A stretch of 64,000 nt of DNA, taken from Saccharopolyspora thermophila (lineage in GTDB: Bacteria > Actinomycetota > Actinomycetes > Mycobacteriales > Pseudonocardiaceae). Position numbers and translations under genes: made by a program. Shown here one piece after another: positions 1,758-23,345 of this stretch (within the stretch, counting starts at the first letter, position 1; each line of letters begins with the position of its first letter). The notes below the pieces were generated by a model. That model saw only the letters and a program-made list of their open reading frames with translations, searched no databases and was not told the DNA's origin. The stretch spans positions 397,930 to 461,929 of the forward strand of contig NZ_BMMT01000001.1 of the NCBI RefSeq assembly GCF_014646075.1, in the 5' to 3' direction.

Positions 1758-2291
1758 ATGCCGGTCGGGCGCGCATCGGATCGACGGCGGCGCGCCCGCC
1801 GGGGCGAGGACCCGGCGGAGCGCCGGTCCGAGCGCGCCCGCCGGACCGGCAGCGGTAAGGGCACCGGGAAGCGACCGCAGTCCGCGGCACGATCCCGGCA
1901 ACGGTCGAGCACCGCGGGCGCCTTCAAGCTGTCCTCGACGCGGCGGGCCGCTGGCCTGGCGATGCTGGTGTGTGTGATGGCGCTGAGCGTGTCGGTGCCG
2001 CTGCGTACCTACCTGAGCCAGCGCGCCGAGCTCGAGGACCAGCAACAGCGCCGGGCGGAGCTGCTACAGCAGGTCCGAGAGCTGGAGCAGCGCAAGCAGG
2101 AGTTGTCCGACCCGGCGCAGGTGGAGGCCGAGGCGCGGGCGCGGCTGGGCTACGTCCGGCCCGGCGAGACACCCTACATCGTGGAGGTGCCGACCGAGCC
2201 GCCCGCGCCGCCACCGCCCGTCGAGCCCGCCGACGACGGCGTGCCGTGGTACGAAGACCTGTGGAATTCCGTGATGAGGAAGGGATCGTGA
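1758..2291 (+). CDS. ftsB: FtsB/DivIC-like septum formation initiator protein
   Basis: Bitopic divisome protein. The 177 residues show a basic, Arg/Ser-rich cytoplasmic N-terminus (1-60), one transmembrane segment (about 63-82, MLVCVMALSVSVPLRTYL), then an extracytoplasmic coiled coil rich in Glu/Gln/Arg (about 86-115), followed by the family motif ARLGYVRPGETPY (about 130-142) and a proline-rich end. FtsB/DivIC forms a subcomplex with FtsL and FtsQ that activates septal cell-wall synthesis. It starts three bases after eno and its stop overlaps the DUF501 start (GTGA). The long basic N-terminal extension is typical of actinobacterial members. Confidence 0.9.
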   Translation: MPVGRASDRRRRARRGEDPAERRSERARRTGSGKGTGKRPQSAARSRQRSSTAGAFKLSSTRRAAGLAMLVCVMALSVSVPLRTYLSQRAELEDQQQRRAELLQQVRELEQRKQELSDPAQVEAEARARLGYVRPGETPYIVEVPTEPPAPPPPVEPADDGVPWYEDLWNSVMRKGS

Positions 2292-2788
2292 CGGTGAACT
2301 CGGGCACGGTCAGTGACGCCGACCGAGAGTGCGTCCAGCGGCAGCTGGGTCGACCGCCGCGCGGGCTGCACGCGGTGGCCGCCCGCGATGCGGCGGGCGA
2401 GCCGACGGTCGTGCAGACGAAACCGCGCCTGGAGGACGGCACGCCGTTTCCGACCCTGTACTACCTGACGGCACCGCAGCTGGTCGCGCACACCTCGACG
2501 CTGGAGGCGGAGGGGCTGATGCGGGAGATGACCGAGCGGCTGGCCACCGACCCGGACCTGGCGCAGCGCTACCGCCGCGCGCACGAGTCCTACCTCGCGG
2601 AGCGTGACGCGCTGGAGCCGCTGGGCACCGACGTCAGCGCGGGGGGCATGCCGAACCGGGTCAAGTGCCTGCATGTCCACGTGGCGCACGCCCTGGCGAA
2701 GGGCCCCGGGGTGAACCCGTTCGGTGACGAGGCGATCGACCTGATCGCCACACGCTGGCCAGAACACCGCTACCTCCTCAACCGCTGA
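2288..2788 (+). CDS. DUF501 domain-containing protein
   Basis: 166-residue cytoplasmic protein of the DUF501 family, conserved directly after ftsB in actinobacteria; its function is unknown. Family features visible are the start DRECVQRQLGRPPRGLHAVA, the central FPTLYYLTAPQLV, and the C-terminal GGMPNRVKCLHVHVAHALA with its Cys-His-His cluster, followed by GPGVNPFGDEA. I chose the GTG at 2288, which overlaps the ftsB stop by four bases (GTGA), consistent with translational coupling; a second GTG at 2294 is possible. Longer upstream readings in this frame only cover ftsB. Confidence 0.92.
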   Translation: MTVNSGTVSDADRECVQRQLGRPPRGLHAVAARDAAGEPTVVQTKPRLEDGTPFPTLYYLTAPQLVAHTSTLEAEGLMREMTERLATDPDLAQRYRRAHESYLAERDALEPLGTDVSAGGMPNRVKCLHVHVAHALAKGPGVNPFGDEAIDLIATRWPEHRYLLNR

Positions 2789-2823
2789 CCCCCACCCCAC
2801 ACCGGGCCGAATCTGCCTCAGGT

Positions 2824-2891
2824 TGGGGGGCCTGGACTGGGGGTGGGGCCGGGTTGGGGTTTTGCGGGTGTTGTGGGGGTTCAGGTGGGGG
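2824..2891 (+). promoter_or_regulatory. G-rich tract with G-quadruplex potential between convergent genes
   Basis: The plus strand carries at least eight runs of three to six G within about 68 bases, including GGGGG-T-GGGG-CC-GGG-TT-GGGG, which fits the classical four-run G-quadruplex rule. It lies after the DUF501 stop and reaches the stop of the convergent acyl-CoA dehydrogenase. A CCCCACCCC at about 2791 can also pair with GGGGTGGGG. It may act as a terminator between the two convergent transcripts. Confidence 0.45.
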
Positions 2892-4491
2892 TGACCCGGT
2901 CGAGGAGGGCTCGTGCTCCGCTGATCGGGGTTGCCCCGAAGGTGTGGTTGGCCGTGGCCAGGCGGGTTGCCACGAAGGCCGCCGCGACCGCCGTCGGGGC
3001 GTGACGGAACAGCAGCGACGCCTGGAACGTGAGCGCCAGCAGCTCCGCGAGGGCCCGGGCGCGTTCGGGAGCCGGTGCGTCGAGTTCGCCGCGCAGCCGC
3101 CGCACCGCGTCGTCGTAGGCGGGATCGGCGCCGCACGCCGTGTCCAGTTCGGACATCAGCGCGTCCTTTGTGGACGGCTGCTTGGCCAAGGCGCGCAACA
3201 GGTCCAGGGCGGTGACGTTGCCGGAGCCCTCCCAGATCGAACTCAGGGGCGCCTCCCGGTACAGCCGGGGCATCCCGGATTCCTCCACGTAACCGTTGCC
3301 GCCGAGGCACTCCAGCGCCTCGGCCACCGCCGCGGGCGCCCGCTTGCACACGTAGAACTTCGCCGCGGGCAGCGCGAGCCGCAGCAGGTCGCGCTCCCCG
3401 GCCTCGACCGCGGCGGCCAGACGCATCGCCAACGTCGTCGCCGCCTCCGATTCCAGCGCCAGGTCGGCCAACACGTTCTGCATCAGCGGCAGGTCCGCGA
3501 GCCGGTGCCCGAAGGCGCTGCGGTGCCGCACGTGGTGCGCCGCCTCGGACAGTGCGATGCGGATGTTGGCCGCCGACCCGAGCACGCAGTCGAGCCGGGT
3601 CATCGACACCATCTCGATGATGCAGCGGACGCCGCGCCCCTCCTCGCCGACCAGGTGGCCCAGCGCACCGGCGTACTCGATCTCGGCGGAGGCGTTCGAC
3701 TTGTTGCCCAGCTTGTCCTTCAACCGCTGGATCCGGATCTCGTTGCGGCTGCCGTCCGGCAGCACCCGCGGCACCAGGAAGCAGCTCAGCCCGCCCGGCG
3801 CCTGCGCCAGCGTCAGGAAGAGGTCGTTCATCGGCGCCGAGGTGAACCACTTGTGCCCGACGATGCGGTAGGTGCCATCCGCCAGCGGCTCCGCCGTGGT
3901 GGTGTTGGCCCGCACGTCCGAGCCGCCCTGCTTCTCGGTCATCGACATCCCGGCCAGCAGCGCCGACTTCTCCGCCGGCGCGCGCAGCCCGAAGTCGTAG
4001 CTGCCCGCGGTCAGCTTCGGCTCGTACTGCCCGGCCAGCGCGGGCGCGTACCGCAGCGCGGGCACCGCGGAGTAGGTCATGGAGATCGGGCAGCCGTGCC
4101 CGGCCTCGGCCTGCGACCACAGGTAGAAGCCCGCCGCGCGCCGCAGATGCGCACCCGGCCCGAGCGCCCAGGGCGCGGCGTGCAGCCCGTGGTCGACGGC
4201 CCGCGCCATCAGCCAGTGCCACGACGGGTGGAACTCGACCTCGTCGATGCGGTGTCCGTAGCGGTCGTGGGTGCGCAGCCGCGGCGGGTGCTCGTTGGCG
4301 AGTCGACCGTGCTCGCGGGCCTCCGCCGAACCGGCCTGCAGAGCGAGTGCGGCGAGGTCGTCGATGCCGTGGCGGTCGAGCGCGGAGCGCAGCGCGGGAT
4401 CGCAGGCGAGCGGGTCGAACCCGTCCAGCGGCGGTGCCTGGTTGACCACCCGGTGGGTGCTGAAGGCGGGCGGCTCGTCGATGAGCGTCAT
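2881..4491 (-). CDS. AidB-type acyl-CoA dehydrogenase family protein
   Basis: FAD-dependent acyl-CoA dehydrogenase fold, 536 residues, the size of the AidB subgroup rather than the ~385-residue beta-oxidation enzymes. Visible features are GCPISMTYSAVPALRY, the flavin-region motif MTEKQGGSDVRANT (near residue 182), the FTSAPMNDLF segment, an acidic/Arg helix GRGVRCIIEMVSMTRLD, and GNVTALDLLRAL near the end. E. coli AidB is induced by alkylation stress and binds DNA; the substrate here is unknown. The start chosen is MTLIDEPPAF at 4491, after a good intergenic gap. It is convergent with DUF501 and divergent from the transglycosylase gene. Confidence 0.88.
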   Translation of the reverse strand: MTLIDEPPAFSTHRVVNQAPPLDGFDPLACDPALRSALDRHGIDDLAALALQAGSAEAREHGRLANEHPPRLRTHDRYGHRIDEVEFHPSWHWLMARAVDHGLHAAPWALGPGAHLRRAAGFYLWSQAEAGHGCPISMTYSAVPALRYAPALAGQYEPKLTAGSYDFGLRAPAEKSALLAGMSMTEKQGGSDVRANTTTAEPLADGTYRIVGHKWFTSAPMNDLFLTLAQAPGGLSCFLVPRVLPDGSRNEIRIQRLKDKLGNKSNASAEIEYAGALGHLVGEEGRGVRCIIEMVSMTRLDCVLGSAANIRIALSEAAHHVRHRSAFGHRLADLPLMQNVLADLALESEAATTLAMRLAAAVEAGERDLLRLALPAAKFYVCKRAPAAVAEALECLGGNGYVEESGMPRLYREAPLSSIWEGSGNVTALDLLRALAKQPSTKDALMSELDTACGADPAYDDAVRRLRGELDAPAPERARALAELLALTFQASLLFRHAPTAVAAAFVATRLATANHTFGATPISGARALLDRVTPT

Positions 4492-17838: not shown

Positions 17839-18261
17839 CTAGCGGCTGTCCCAGGGATTGACGAGCTCGACTCCTGTCTCCTCGAAATCCTTGATGTTGC
17901 GGGTGGCCAGTGCTGCTCCACGCGCACGGCAGATCGCTGCGATCTGAGCGTCCGCGGCGCTGATGGGGCGGCCAAGCTTGTCGCGTTCGTTGACCACGAC
18001 GGCGTAGTGGGCTGCCGCTGGTGCGTCGAAAGGTTCGACCCGCCCGTGGAAGTCGTCGTTGATCAGGGCATGGACCGCCGCGGTGAGTGCGGTCTTCCGT
18101 TGTCCATCGGGAAGTCGGGATACGCCGTACAGCAGTTCGGCGGCAGTGATCGCGGTTATCGCCACCTCTGTTGCGGGGAGCGAATCAAGCCACGCCACGA
18201 CGTCAGCGTGCGGTGTGCGGCGAGTGAGCTCGGAAAGGACGTTGGTGTCAAGAATGATCAC
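17839..18261 (-). CDS. PIN-domain toxin, VapC/FitB type
   Basis: 140-residue PIN-domain ribonuclease predicted to be the toxin of a type II toxin-antitoxin pair. The acidic metal-binding residues are in place: Asp5 (MIILDTNVLSE), Glu42 (TAITAAELLYGV), Asp104 (GRPISAADAQIAAI) and, near the end, TRNIKDFEE with Asn122/Asp125. The GTG start overlaps the stop of the upstream antitoxin gene (GTGA), the usual coupling order antitoxin then toxin. The RPISAADAQIAAICR pattern is closest to the FitB subgroup. GC-content is slightly lower than in neighbours, fitting mobile acquisition. Confidence 0.93.
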   Translation of the reverse strand: MIILDTNVLSELTRRTPHADVVAWLDSLPATEVAITAITAAELLYGVSRLPDGQRKTALTAAVHALINDDFHGRVEPFDAPAAAHYAVVVNERDKLGRPISAADAQIAAICRARGAALATRNIKDFEETGVELVNPWDSR

Positions 18262-18503
18262 GAGTCAAGGTCCGCTGCACGAGGGGGTTCGTTCCGGGGA
18301 GGAAGTTCGATCTCGGGCTCACCGAGGTCCGCGAACCGGGAGTGAATGCGACTGCCCAGGCCGCGGGAGGCCGCAGGCGGCGCCACCGAGGCTCGCAGGA
18401 TCGCCCGGACCTCGGCTTCCATCGAGCGTCCGTGTCGTGCGGCCTGGATTCGGAGTCGTGCATGGGTCTCGTCATCCAAGCCGCGGATCGTCAGGGTGGG
18501 CAT
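18258..18503 (-). CDS. Ribbon-helix-helix antitoxin, FitA/VapB type
   Basis: 81-residue antitoxin. Residues 1-40 are a ribbon-helix-helix DNA-binding domain: strand MPTLTIRGLDDE, then helices around THARLRIQAARHGRSMEAEV and RAILRASV. The C-terminal part (about 50-81) is Glu/Pro-rich and would wrap the PIN toxin. FitA family members bind an inverted repeat in their own promoter together with the toxin, so autoregulation is expected. An AT-richer stretch (about 18509-18540) immediately upstream is the probable promoter. The start is ATG with AGGTGAATC in front. Confidence 0.92.
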   Translation of the reverse strand: MPTLTIRGLDDETHARLRIQAARHGRSMEAEVRAILRASVAPPAASRGLGSRIHSRFADLGEPEIELPPRNEPPRAADLDS

Positions 18504-20390: not shown

Positions 20391-20423
20391 TTGACAATCC
20401 GTAGCGGGAAATCGAAGACTTAT
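20391..20423 (+). promoter_or_regulatory. Candidate promoter of the small-ORF / ATP-grasp unit
   Basis: A perfect TTGACA -35 hexamer at 20391-20396, rare in this GC-rich window, is followed by AT-richer DNA up to GACTTAT at 20417-20423. The -10 match is weak and its spacing (18-21 bp) is not ideal. If used, transcription would begin near 20428, leaving ATG 20446 or GTG 20467 as the first usable start codons. Confidence 0.4.
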
Positions 20424-20466
20424 GGCGCTGTCTTCACCTGAAAGGATGCGTCGTGCGGGGGATGGG

Positions 20467-20595
20467 GTGAAGCCCTTGACGCTGAAGGAACTTGCTGAGC
20501 TGTTGCGCAGCGGCGCTGTCGAAGAAGGTCCGCTCGCCGACTTCGCGGTGGACTACCGGGAAGCCTCCCAGATCTTCCGGAAGAAGGACGACTGA
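20467..20595 (+). CDS. Very small ORF coupled to ATP-grasp ligase; candidate modified-peptide precursor
   Basis: A 42-residue peptide that begins MKPLTLKELAELLRSG and ends in a charged tail (SQIFRKKDD). GTG 20467 has GGGGGA five bases upstream. In-frame ATGs at 20446 and 20422 would give 49 or 57 residues. The TGA lies two bases before the ATG of the ATP-grasp gene, so the two are translationally coupled. The first half predicts as an amphipathic leader-like helix (LTLKELAELLR); the second half is rich in Glu/Asp with Ser, Tyr and Lys, the residue types that ATP-grasp macrocyclases join. No close family is recognised. Precursor or carrier role is inferred from position and size only. Confidence 0.6.
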   Translation: MKPLTLKELAELLRSGAVEEGPLADFAVDYREASQIFRKKDD

Positions 20596-20597
20596 GC

Positions 20598-21740
20598 ATG
20601 ACGCCGGCCGACGGGCGACCCACCGGTCCCGGCGGGTCGCCCGCTCCCACTGCCGAGCCGTCGCTGCGTCCCACTCCGCTGCTGCTGCAGGGCCAGGACT
20701 ACTTCTTTCGATCCCCGAACACCCCACTGGACTTCCAGGAGCGCATGTTCTGCGCCGACCTGGTGGCCGACGAGCCGGGCGACCCCGTGCCCTGCGTGCT
20801 GGTGCTGGCGCGCGCCGCCGACATGGAGATGAACGAGCTGTCGCTGGCGCTGGCCGAGCACGACATCCGCATGGTCCGCATCGACGCCGACCGCTGCCTG
20901 GACCTCGCGCTCACCGTCTACACCGACGCCCCGCTGATCGAACTCCACCGCTGGCTGCTGCGCCCGGTGCTGGTGTGGCGGCGGCACTTCGACGTGACCG
21001 CGCTGCCGGTCAACCCCACCACGGTGCACGGCGCCTATGTGCGTGAGCAGTGGCAGGCGGTGGCGAACTGGCTGTCCTGCCGCAGCGACTGGACCCAGGT
21101 GAACTCGGTGCGCACATCCCATCACCTCGACCGGCTGACGCAGCTGTCCGACGCGGCCGCGGTCGGCCTGCGGGTGCCGCGCACGGTGGTGACGACGATG
21201 CCGGGCCGCAGCCGCCCCGGTGGGGGTCGCTGCATCGTGAAGACCGCCGGGCATCACCTGCTGGAACCCGAGCCCGGCGCGCTGCGCGGCCTGTTCCCGC
21301 AACCCATGGACATCCGCCGCACCGGTGAGGCGCGCGAGCCGGCGCCGGTGCTGGTCCAGCAGTACCTCGACGCCGACCAGGAGCTGCGGGTGTTCGTGGT
21401 CGGCGACCGGGCGATCGGCTACCGGGTGCAGAAACTCGACCCGGCACAGCTGTGGGTGGATCCGGACTCGGTGGCGGTGGAGCGGGTCGACCTTCCGGCG
21501 GACCTGGTGAGCCGGCTGCTCACCCTGTGCCGCCGGTGGAGCCTGGACGTGGCGGGTTTCGACCTGCTCGACGTGGGCGGCGACTGGGTGTTCCTGGAGG
21601 TCAACGTCAACTGCGACTGGCGCTGGTTCGAGCACCGCGCCGACTGCACGGCGGTGTCGACCGCGGTGCACGGCTGGGTCCGCGGCCGCTTCGAAGAACT
21701 GTCGGCCTCGATCGCGGCGGGCGGGTGGAGCCGCTGGTAA
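20598..21740 (+). CDS. ATP-grasp ligase, graspetide-synthetase (MvdD-like) type
   Basis: 380-residue enzyme of the ATP-grasp superfamily. The N-terminal half holds the pre-ATP-grasp pattern of peptide macrocyclases: ELSLALAEHDIRMVRIDADR (about 78), VLVWRRHFD (about 122), then LDRLTQLSDAAAVGLRVPRT, matching the usual Trp/Asn-Pro then QL-A-GL-vPrT-vT block. The ATP-grasp half shows CIVKTAG (about 212), PVLVQQYLDADQELRVFVVG (about 252) and the magnesium-binding FLEVNVNCDWRWFEH (about 332). Such enzymes form ester or amide crosslinks between side chains of a small precursor encoded next door. The upstream 42-residue ORF is the obvious candidate substrate. No transporter or protease gene follows; a tRNA comes next. 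Confidence 0.85.
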   Translation: MTPADGRPTGPGGSPAPTAEPSLRPTPLLLQGQDYFFRSPNTPLDFQERMFCADLVADEPGDPVPCVLVLARAADMEMNELSLALAEHDIRMVRIDADRCLDLALTVYTDAPLIELHRWLLRPVLVWRRHFDVTALPVNPTTVHGAYVREQWQAVANWLSCRSDWTQVNSVRTSHHLDRLTQLSDAAAVGLRVPRTVVTTMPGRSRPGGGRCIVKTAGHHLLEPEPGALRGLFPQPMDIRRTGEAREPAPVLVQQYLDADQELRVFVVGDRAIGYRVQKLDPAQLWVDPDSVAVERVDLPADLVSRLLTLCRRWSLDVAGFDLLDVGGDWVFLEVNVNCDWRWFEHRADCTAVSTAVHGWVRGRFEELSASIAAGGWSRW

Positions 21741-21854
21741 CGAGAAGGCCCGATGTGTCGCTCGACTCAGCGCTTCCCCGAACCGGGAACCAGGAGCAGA
21801 GTCGAAGCGTCAAACCAGTTGCGATCGGCAGCAACAAGCGACCCGAGAGCTGAG

Positions 21855-21931
21855 GCCCCCGTAGCCCAACTGGCAGAGGCAGACGACTTAAAATCGTCCA
21901 AGTGTCGGTTCGAATCCGACCGGGGGCACCA
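21855..21931 (+). tRNA. tRNA with UAA anticodon, class I fold, encoded CCA
   Basis: 77 nt fold as a complete cloverleaf. Acceptor GCCCCCG (21855-21861) pairs with CGGGGGC (21921-21927), discriminator A at 21928 and CCA at 21929-21931. The D-arm has a short GCC/GGC stem with GG in the loop. Anticodon stem GACGA/TCGTC encloses loop CTTAAAA, giving anticodon TAA (21889-21891), which reads the leucine codon UUA. The T-arm is GTCGG-TTCGAAT-CCGAC. The variable region is only CAAGT, whereas bacterial tRNA-Leu normally has a long variable arm. Either this is an atypical tRNA-Leu(UAA) or a tRNA of different identity. Its 3' end is a plausible attachment site for the integrase gene starting 100 bp downstream. 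Confidence 0.85.
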
Positions 21932-22031
21932 TCACCGCAGGTCAGAGCACGTGGATCTTTCCGGGTCCGGCGTACGGCGGAGATCATCCGCCGTTTACTC
22001 GTCGTTGTGGTACTCGGCAAGGGAGCTGCAC

Positions 22032-23345
22032 ATGGCTCGACCACCTCTTGAGATCGGCAGTCACGGGAAGATCCGCACCACCCAACGAGACGATGGAACC
22101 TGGGCAGCCACCACGTGGTTCCGCTTCTTTGACGGCAAGACACGTCAGGTCGAGCGCTCCGGCGCGACGGAGCGGAAGGCGGTCAAGCGGCTACGGACTG
22201 CGATCGAGGAGCTGCAGAAGTCCCGGGCCCGGCTGACGCTTGATCCAAGTTTCCGCGATGTCGCGGCCAAGTGGCTCGAGAAGGTCGCAAGGCGCCGGGC
22301 GGCCACCACACACAACACCTATCAGCGGACCTTGAACAACGTCGTGTTCGACCGCATCGGTGACCTGCGCCTCCGGGAGATTGATGTCCCGCTTCTCGAG
22401 GACCTGTTCGAGGAGCTCGAGGAGGAAGGGCTCTCGGCGAATTACCGCCGTTCGGTCCGCACGACCATCAGTGGCAGGCTGCAGACGGCTGTCCGTTACG
22501 GGTTGCTGGACCGCAACCCCGTTCGGGAGATCAGCCCGATCGAGGGAGGCTCCCGAAAGGTTCGCGCCCTCAGGGCCGACGAAAGGCTGCGTCTTCTTGC
22601 GAGTGTGGATCAGTACGTTGTTGAGAACCGGTTCTTCAAGTACTCGGAACTCCCGGATCTTGTCCGGTTTCTTCTGGGGACGGGGTGCCGCATCGGGGAA
22701 GCGCTGGCGGTGCGGTGGCGAGACGTCAACCTGACAAACAAGCCGGTGATCTCCGAGGACGGGACTGTGATCCCGCCCCGGTCGGTCTGGATCAACGGAA
22801 ACATCGTCGACGTCACGGGCAAGGGCCTGGTCCGCCATCCGGGGAAAACGGAGAACGCCAATCGGTTCCTTGCCCTGCCGCAGTTCGTCGTGAGGGTGCT
22901 CACGGCCCGACTGCTGATCGCGTGGTCCGCAGCGAAGGGTGAGGAGCTCAATACCGCACGTGTGGCGCTGGAGGGCCTGAGCGACGGCGGATACGTGGAG
23001 ACCGACTCCGAGGGCGCGGTACGGATTCTGGGGGTCGACGAGTCGATGTCCAGCATCCTCGACGATCCTGTCTTCCCATCGAGGACATTAGGATGGAAGC
23101 ACCCGAACAACGTTCGACGTAGCTGGCGCATTGTGCGCGCCGCGATTGGATTCGCGTGGGTGACGCCGCACGTTTTCCGTACGACGGCTGCGACGGTCCT
23201 CGACGACGAGCGACTGACGCCGCGGCAGATCGCGGATATTCTCGGCCACTCCAAGCCCTCGACAACGATGGACCTGTACATGGGGCGCGGGGAGGTGAAT
23301 GAGGCAGCGGCAGCAGTGCTTCACGGAGCCATCTGCGCAAGCTGA
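22032..23345 (+). CDS. int: Tyrosine-type site-specific integrase
   Basis: Phage/ICE-type tyrosine recombinase, 437 residues. N-terminal AP2-like DNA-binding strands (ten residues after IGSHGKIRTTQRDDGTWAAT), core-binding SAM-like domain (about 65-150) and catalytic domain (about 195-425). Catalytic residues: Arg in FLLGTGCRIGEALAVRW (about 219), HVFR box in VTPHVFRTTAAT (about 380-383), second His in ADILGHSKPSTTMDLYM (about 405) and nucleophile Tyr about 416. ATG 22032 with GGGAG upstream; the open frame extends back through the tRNA but only as shadow. GC is lower than the surroundings, and codon 353 is TTA, very rare in such genomes. Integration next to the tRNA is expected; no excisionase or replication gene follows. 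Confidence 0.95.
   Translation: MARPPLEIGSHGKIRTTQRDDGTWAATTWFRFFDGKTRQVERSGATERKAVKRLRTAIEELQKSRARLTLDPSFRDVAAKWLEKVARRRAATTHNTYQRTLNNVVFDRIGDLRLREIDVPLLEDLFEELEEEGLSANYRRSVRTTISGRLQTAVRYGLLDRNPVREISPIEGGSRKVRALRADERLRLLASVDQYVVENRFFKYSELPDLVRFLLGTGCRIGEALAVRWRDVNLTNKPVISEDGTVIPPRSVWINGNIVDVTGKGLVRHPGKTENANRFLALPQFVVRVLTARLLIAWSAAKGEELNTARVALEGLSDGGYVETDSEGAVRILGVDESMSSILDDPVFPSRTLGWKHPNNVRRSWRIVRAAIGFAWVTPHVFRTTAATVLDDERLTPRQIADILGHSKPSTTMDLYMGRGEVNEAAAAVLHGAICAS

Follow-up and report, generated by a model that had tools for sequence, protein, structure and literature searches.

A short peptide with a fixed KKDD tail and its adjoining ATP-grasp ligase form a probable substrate–ligase pair in Pseudonocardiaceae

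Ligases of the RimK and LysX/LysW types ligate onto an acidic C-terminus, and in the precursors of modified-peptide natural products the modified part is often variable. Graspetide chemistry is described in a 2026 survey (PMC13097080) that extends the graspetide groups to 43; in its main text, the terms SagB, nitroreductase, Saccharothrix, Saccharopolyspora and Lentzea do not occur. Of particular relevance here is branch 6 of Makarova 2022 (PMC8939145). It holds pheganomycin-type loci, SagB-like enzymes and two precursor clusters, 367 and 1115, that have neither GG nor Phhx(1,2)h, and that paper regards it as possibly comprising RiPPs outside the graspetide class. The same paper finds GG and Phhx(1,2)h each in only about half of the precursors, making them a weak criterion, and treats PGM1 as a distantly related ATP-grasp protein; KKDD does not appear in its main text. 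Among the titles and abstract openings of open-access papers, none is about the gene pair described below; three such papers (PMC10885120, PMC13039773 and PMC11888242) mention both graspetides and Saccharopolyspora.

We analyzed a 64,000-nucleotide stretch of Saccharopolyspora thermophila DNA (the window), in which a small ORF (20476..20595, + strand), the predicted ligase substrate, precedes a gene for an ATP-grasp ligase of 380 aa (20598..21740, + strand), with 2 bases between the stop codon of the one and the start of the other. A sequence-only reading had described a small ORF ending two bases before a 380-residue ATP-grasp gene, a perfect TTGACA upstream and several protein blocks within the enzyme; the coordinates agree, the TTGACA lies at 20391-20396, and the blocks are present. 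That reading also gave the small ORF 42 codons, or 57 at most. Both forms exist, one from GTG 20467 (42 aa) and one from ATG 20422 (57 aa; 20422-20595, 57 codons in the ORF list), but the homologous start points to TTG 20476 and a 39-aa product, MTLKELAELLRSGAVEEGPLADFAVDYREASQIFRKKDD. This TTG is probably the true start rather than GTG 20467, because it is the homologous start codon in the alignment with other genera: across 21 aligned upstream regions, the equivalent codon is ATG after AGGTGA in most other genera. A probable ribosome-binding site, GGGGTGA (20464..20470, + strand), sits 5 bases before the TTG and aligns with the AGGTGA found before ATG elsewhere, and the GTG is missing at the equivalent place in one Saccharopolyspora (L021/L047).

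The small ORF is under purifying selection. Among 12 hand-picked, equal-length sequences out of 70, pN was below pS in 11/11 comparisons with the window small ORF (pN 0.05-0.32, pS 0.36-0.61), and over all 66 pairs mean pN was 0.215 and mean pS 0.500. A chance ORF is ruled out by this relation, by the profile matches in 108/297 genomes and by the fixed KKDD tail.

Presence of the two genes coincides almost completely. A profile built from 25 enzymes (E<=1e-50) matched 110 of the 297 family genomes, in 20/46 genera, and one built from 24 small ORFs (E<=0.001) matched 108, in 18/46 genera. The small ORF never occurred without the enzyme, and the enzyme lacked the small ORF in two genomes, namely G032, in which the contig begins inside the gene, and G228, which carries a distant paralogue with a different small ORF and SagB. 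In 108/108 genomes the two genes share contig and strand, with the small ORF upstream; the median gap between matched segments is 47 nt, and the gap is <=250 nt in 105/108. The three larger gaps (557-1022 nt) have no bearing on whether the tail codons are kept merely as a ribosome-binding site, because the ligase reading frame there is open back to the small ORF, as in G103 (L271). At that locus (1773-3896) the ATP-grasp frame is ~300 residues longer upstream, Pro/Ala-rich, and reaches the small ORF; L272 and L274 likewise have long gaps between the two genes. A neighborhood search had been proposed from the sequence alone, with homologues lacking a small ORF named as refuting cases. It placed the small ORF upstream in 108 of 110 enzyme-bearing genomes and left merely one cut contig and one distant paralogue without it. 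The pairing is real, and stronger than sequence alone had indicated. A class-wide search of 394 genomes with the small-ORF profile gave a single match, the window's own genome.

The C-terminus of the peptide is nearly invariant. Among 108 peptides (27 from the first locus set plus 81 fetched additionally; 52 distinct sequences), 107 end in KKDD and one in RKDD, the latter from a Kutzneria MAG (L093; L299 has the same sequence) whose enzyme match is intact. A second locus set of 69 loci plus the window, which overlaps the first and leaves out L101 (a cut contig) and L102 (a distant relative), has [KR]KDD ends in 70/70 peptides. Residues L6, A7, R11, K-3, D-2 and D-1 are invariant in the 108 peptides, K-4 and G13 are each kept in 107, and position 5 is acidic throughout (E 102, D 6). 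Position 2 is Ser or Thr in 108/108, as the extraction pattern, which partly fixed positions 2-7, itself demanded. The last nine residues contain no Thr in any of the 108 peptides, in line with the scarcity of Thr and the mismatch to described graspetide cores noted earlier; Ser is found there in 79/108, its place not fixed in all. No Ser or Thr is invariant within the tail, leaving Lys and Asp as its sole invariant residues. GG occurs in 0/108 peptides; Phhx(1,2)h, a leader motif, is present in 57/108 and so is not conserved. Covariation of the acidic tail, which the sequence-only reading had predicted, was not seen: the tail hardly varies.

Codons of the tail, the predicted modification site, occupy 20581..20592 (+ strand). 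At the 70 loci they vary synonymously (D-1: GAC 46, GAT 24; K-3: AAG 56, AAA 14), so it is the protein that is conserved, not DNA alone. Part of these codons (AAGAAGGA) is usable as a ribosome-binding site of the ligase gene, which may inflate the conservation of the two Lys. As the only cause of tail conservation, a ribosome-binding site is insufficient, given that Asp is always kept at D-1 through GAC or GAT and that Saccharothrix has AAGAAAGAC where others have AAGAAGGAC. Judged from these sequences, a tail fixed across 18 genera is unlike a diversifying natural product, and the fixed sequence and single copy suggest a product serving the producer rather than a diversifying antibiotic.

A third gene accompanies the pair in some genera. 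At 20/70 loci the ATP-grasp gene runs straight into a gene for a SagB-type dehydrogenase. In 20/20 the SagB match begins either 4 nt ahead of the point where the ATP-grasp match stops or 5 nt beyond it, and in the three loci with known ORF ends (L050, L090, L271) the SagB gene overlaps the ATP-grasp ORF by ~20 nt. The protein scores 117.7 bits on TIGR03605 (cut-off 78.4) and 177.8 bits on TIGR04511 (cut-off 240) and matches Pfam Nitroreductase. SagB is at the locus in 13/13 Saccharothrix, in both Streptoalloteichus and in one each of Longimycelium, Solihabitans, Umezawaea, Goodfellowiella and Actinoalloteichus. At this position, loci of Saccharopolyspora, Lentzea, Kutzneria, Crossiella, Allokutzneria, Gandjariella and YIM PH 21723 yielded no SagB; two Lentzea loci among them (L056, L089) end within 300 nt and carry little information on its absence. 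In a second set of 39 carriers, SagB is adjacent in 12 and hidden by a contig break in 1; it is missing in G221 and present in carriers of the same genus (g44). The window's genome has no SagB match at E<=1e-10, and the same query matches 23/56 genomes at E<=1e-25, the window's genome not included. Since the tail is identical with or without SagB at the locus, whatever keeps the tail conserved does not depend on SagB. SagB-like genes also occur at L135 (G036) and L136 (G071), where no match to this ATP-grasp was found within the fetched 10-11 kb; a short acidic ORF (40-42 aa) stands ahead of each, and these may be separate peptide-modification units.

The layout of small ORF, ATP-grasp and SagB recurs in three distant relatives, L102 (Pseudonocardia nigra), G228 (L120) and G623 (L143/L172), whose ATP-grasp proteins are 35%, 36% and 41% identical to the window's. 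Their small ORFs, hand-picked from mechanical ORF lists, start with MSTVQELA, MSIQELA and MTIQEQA and end in CGKGCH, CKSCHGG and CKGCHGG, respectively; each tail has a Lys and none has an acidic residue. The shared start and swapped tail point to the tail as the part that would be modified. Elsewhere in the same large clade, the ATP-grasp genes of L145, L146, L147 and L149 are preceded by 30-32-aa ORFs whose last two residues are always Pro-Cys (AVTPC or AVPPC), a further case of a small ORF with a fixed tail.

The enzyme matches Pfam RimK at 21.7 bits, against a cut-off of 21, and its PDB profile matches include CdnC (7mgv), AMdnB (7m4s), 'ATP grasp ligase' (5ig8 and 5ig9) and 7drm. CdnC, AMdnB and similar entries are the best of these matches, and RimK-type ligases are among the weakest of ten. 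R264, D322, E334 and N336 are invariant in two enzyme alignments (25 and 11 rows), persist in the two relatives with 35-36% identity as well, and are matched by identical letters in CdnC; their equivalents we take to be catalytic residues. On family models the window enzyme stays below the cut-offs, with 80.9 bits on TIGR04187 (cut-off 350), 52.4 on MvdC (425) and 40.7 on MvdD (475). Four comparison actinobacterial enzymes reach 372.8 and 395.4 (passing) and 231.8 and 247.2 bits (below) on TIGR04187, all far above the window's 80.9. These four were drawn from 23 graspetide-synthetase-like ATP-grasp ligases that lie opposite the KKDD enzymes in a maximum-likelihood tree of 42 enzymes (midpoint root; 100/100). 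A branch with 100/100 support sets the KKDD enzymes and their SagB- and pheganomycin-type relatives (19 rows) apart, and among these the nine KKDD enzymes cluster together (100/100). Beside the KKDD group stands the enzyme of G460 (L173), placed with weak support (80/69) on a long branch; its gene adjoins PGM1-type and DpgA-type genes. The earlier description of an MvdD-like macrocyclase therefore survives in part: the ATP-grasp similarity and the Arg/Asp/Glu/Asn set stand, but MvdC, MvdD and TIGR04187 scores are far below cut-offs. Membership of a described graspetide class is not supported, given the low scores, the separate clade, the lack of GG and the absence of Thr from the last nine residues.

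Upstream of the small ORF lies a promoter-like element (20391..20420, + strand) formed by TTGACA and a conserved block ending AAGACT (20415-20420, a possible −10). TTGAC stands 85-91 nt before the second codon in 68/70 loci, and TTGACA is present in 65/70 loci versus 0/70 in a 140-nt control taken from farther up, inside the NADH-dehydrogenase-like gene (ndh). Downstream of TTGAC come a conserved GA(A/G)AC-type block and then TCACCTGAA. Alignment of 21 upstream regions also marks a conserved TTCACCTGAA block (20433..20442, + strand), a putative element that is possibly an operator or RNA hairpin. A sigma-70 consensus scan of the upstream region gave 0 sites, because no TATAAT-like −10 follows the TTGACA, and a known RNA element was discarded as a candidate, there being no Rfam match at E<=1.

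The surroundings of the pair are stable. Upstream lies ndh, also in 69/71 other loci, and in the window the pair is followed by tRNA-Leu(TAA) at 21855-21931. A gene for an S10-type peptidase (29.7 bits; cut-off 21.9) sits ~3.5 kb upstream on the other strand. In genomes without the pair (14 fetched of 18 searched), an S10-like gene is near ndh in 12/14, and a UDG-like gene and ndh lie within the same 13-14 kb in 13/14. A functional link to the upstream ndh finds no support, the neighborhood being merely stable, with the UDG-like gene and ndh together in 13/14 non-carriers. No protease or transporter gene adjoins the pair in the window, as had been noted from the sequence alone; across the loci, neither a leader protease nor an exporter was found to recur next to it, and no further gene is conserved beside it throughout Saccharopolyspora. 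In G019, of the same genus, and in G026, both without the pair, the tRNA follows ndh after ~360 and ~265 nt, respectively, and BLAST with the window pair region found the tRNA and not the pair genes. Both of these empty sites are consistent with joint loss of the two genes. The pair is thus carried by some genomes and missing from others at a stable chromosomal site, with loss in G019 the simpler reading.

Several other features were seen nearby. A tyrosine-recombinase-like ORF (21753-23345) overlaps and follows tRNA-Leu(TAA), its true start probably lying after the tRNA, and looks like part of an integrative element; no second copy of an 18-base tRNA stretch was found within the window. The pair itself is unlikely to be carried on this element, since it is located ahead of the tRNA-Leu, toward ndh. 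At 17839-18503 (− strand), overlapping ORFs of 81 and 140 aa resemble a VapBC-type toxin-antitoxin by eye, with matches in 3/71 related loci. Genes that by eye are pqqB-, pqqC-, pqqD- and pqqE-like lie ~1.5-7 kb downstream of the pair in L051, L055, L094 and other loci; a pqqB-like gene is near the pair in up to 8 genera, no Saccharopolyspora among them.

We consider it likely that the two genes form a dedicated substrate-and-ligase pair that makes an amide at the invariant KDD tail. The small peptide is very probably the substrate of the enzyme, and, granted that status, the KDD tail is very probably where it would be modified. The 39-residue peptide would be produced beside the ATP-grasp enzyme, behind the conserved promoter-like region, and would probably bind it through the conserved N-terminal part (MSLEELA...R.G). 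The enzyme would activate a carboxylate at the expense of ATP, and the bond made at the C-terminal Lys-Asp-Asp would more likely be an amide than an ester. In some genera, the SagB-type flavin dehydrogenase probably adds a further step. K-3 and the two Asp, all invariant, are the candidate sites, K-4 being Arg in one MAG. With no invariant Ser or Thr in the tail, an ester is the less likely linkage; position 2 is always one or the other, and an ester involving the N-terminal part through that residue is conceivable. For the topology, an internal Lys-to-acid lactam is tentatively, and slightly, favored over addition of an outside amine or acid. The lactam would fit the chemistry of the nearest solved enzymes (CdnC, AMdnB-type), presumably graspetide-type linkages. 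Joining K-3 to D-2 or D-1 would give a very small lactam, which counts against the best explanation, and because distant tails have no acidic residue, one shared lactam scheme misfits the whole clade.

The exact stop at DD and the acid-free distant tails would both be better accounted for if an outside group were added. The sequence-only reading had offered either a new class or a small carrier protein, and each may be right. In this second topology within the best explanation, which we hold to be possible, the peptide would be a carrier or scaffold to whose C-terminal Asp or tail Lys the enzyme ligates an outside amino acid or small molecule, with SagB, if present, oxidizing the attached group. 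An exact C-terminus fixed in 108/108, a terminal nonapeptide without Thr or conserved Ser, a Pfam RimK score just above cut-off and closest clades holding SagB-type clusters, plus one with PGM1- and DpgA-type genes, are consistent with it; the CdnC/AMdnB-like best PDB matches, with RimK-type ligases near the bottom, and the lack of a further conserved gene beside the pair in Saccharopolyspora argue the other way. Carried wholly outside graspetides, the idea would have the ATP-grasp enzyme ligate an outside molecule onto the Lys-Asp-Asp tail of the 39-residue carrier, an optional SagB oxidize the adduct, and the released or carried product act as a cofactor or signal, a reading comparable in logic to mycofactocin or LysW systems that we find doubtful.

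Two further accounts were weighed. The small ORF might be a partner subunit, activator or translation leader of a ligase acting elsewhere: its tail codons resemble a ribosome-binding site, its stop lies two bases from the ligase start, and partner-protein-dependent graspetide synthetases are described (PMC13097080). This is unlikely, since amino acids are kept despite synonymous change, including D-1, which a ribosome-binding site would not demand, and distant relatives retain the leader-like part and swap the tail. An ordinary graspetide of an undescribed group, its side chains joined by several lactones and lactams in the manner of microviridin or plesiocin, is unlikely as well. The precursor is upstream, Lys and Asp are usable as donor and acceptor, and the enzyme has profile similarity to, and residues in common with, solved graspetide-type ligases; set against these are TIGR04187, MvdC and MvdD scores far below cut-offs (comparison enzymes score far higher on TIGR04187), a separate clade, 0/108 GG, 57/108 Phhx(1,2)h and no invariant Ser or Thr in the tail. 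The substrate–ligase pair with an amide at the KDD tail is thus the reading that we carry forward. Its ATP-grasp chemistry would misfit the usual graspetide rules, and its tail has not moved across 18 genera despite free synonymous change, while the pair is absent at the same site in some relatives.

Compared with known systems, the window family very likely belongs with branch 6, whose own sequences are not among the 42 tree rows, and others have very likely come across this enzyme group already. The two share broad ATP-grasp company, small GG-less precursors, a neighboring SagB-like nitroreductase and the pheganomycin link; the passages of that paper covered here (PMC8939145) describe for branch 6 neither a KKDD tail fixed from genus to genus nor the promoter-like region, the empty sites or the SagB-less two-gene form. 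Graspetide systems (MvdC/MvdD, TIGR04187, plesiocin) resemble the pair in ATP-grasp similarity, the Arg/Asp/Glu/Asn set and an upstream precursor, whereas the window enzyme falls far below their cut-offs in a separate clade and the peptides lack GG and, in the tail, a conserved Ser/Thr-plus-acid core pattern. With RimK and LysX-LysW it shares the ATP-grasp character and a predicted substrate with an invariant acidic C-terminal end, yet it is only a weak RimK match. The pheganomycin PGM1 system has a counterpart in the clade relative G460, with its adjoining PGM1-type and DpgA-type genes, but no PGM1 or polyketide synthase was seen at KKDD loci. Unlike SagB-type azole-forming systems, the window's genome yielded no SagB, which stands beside the ligase in 20/70 loci. 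As far as the covered literature shows, the fixed tail, strict pairing, conserved upstream region, empty sites and SagB-less two-gene form are new, and the pair would offer a simple two-protein example of an ATP-grasp peptide ligase with a product that may benefit the organism making it.
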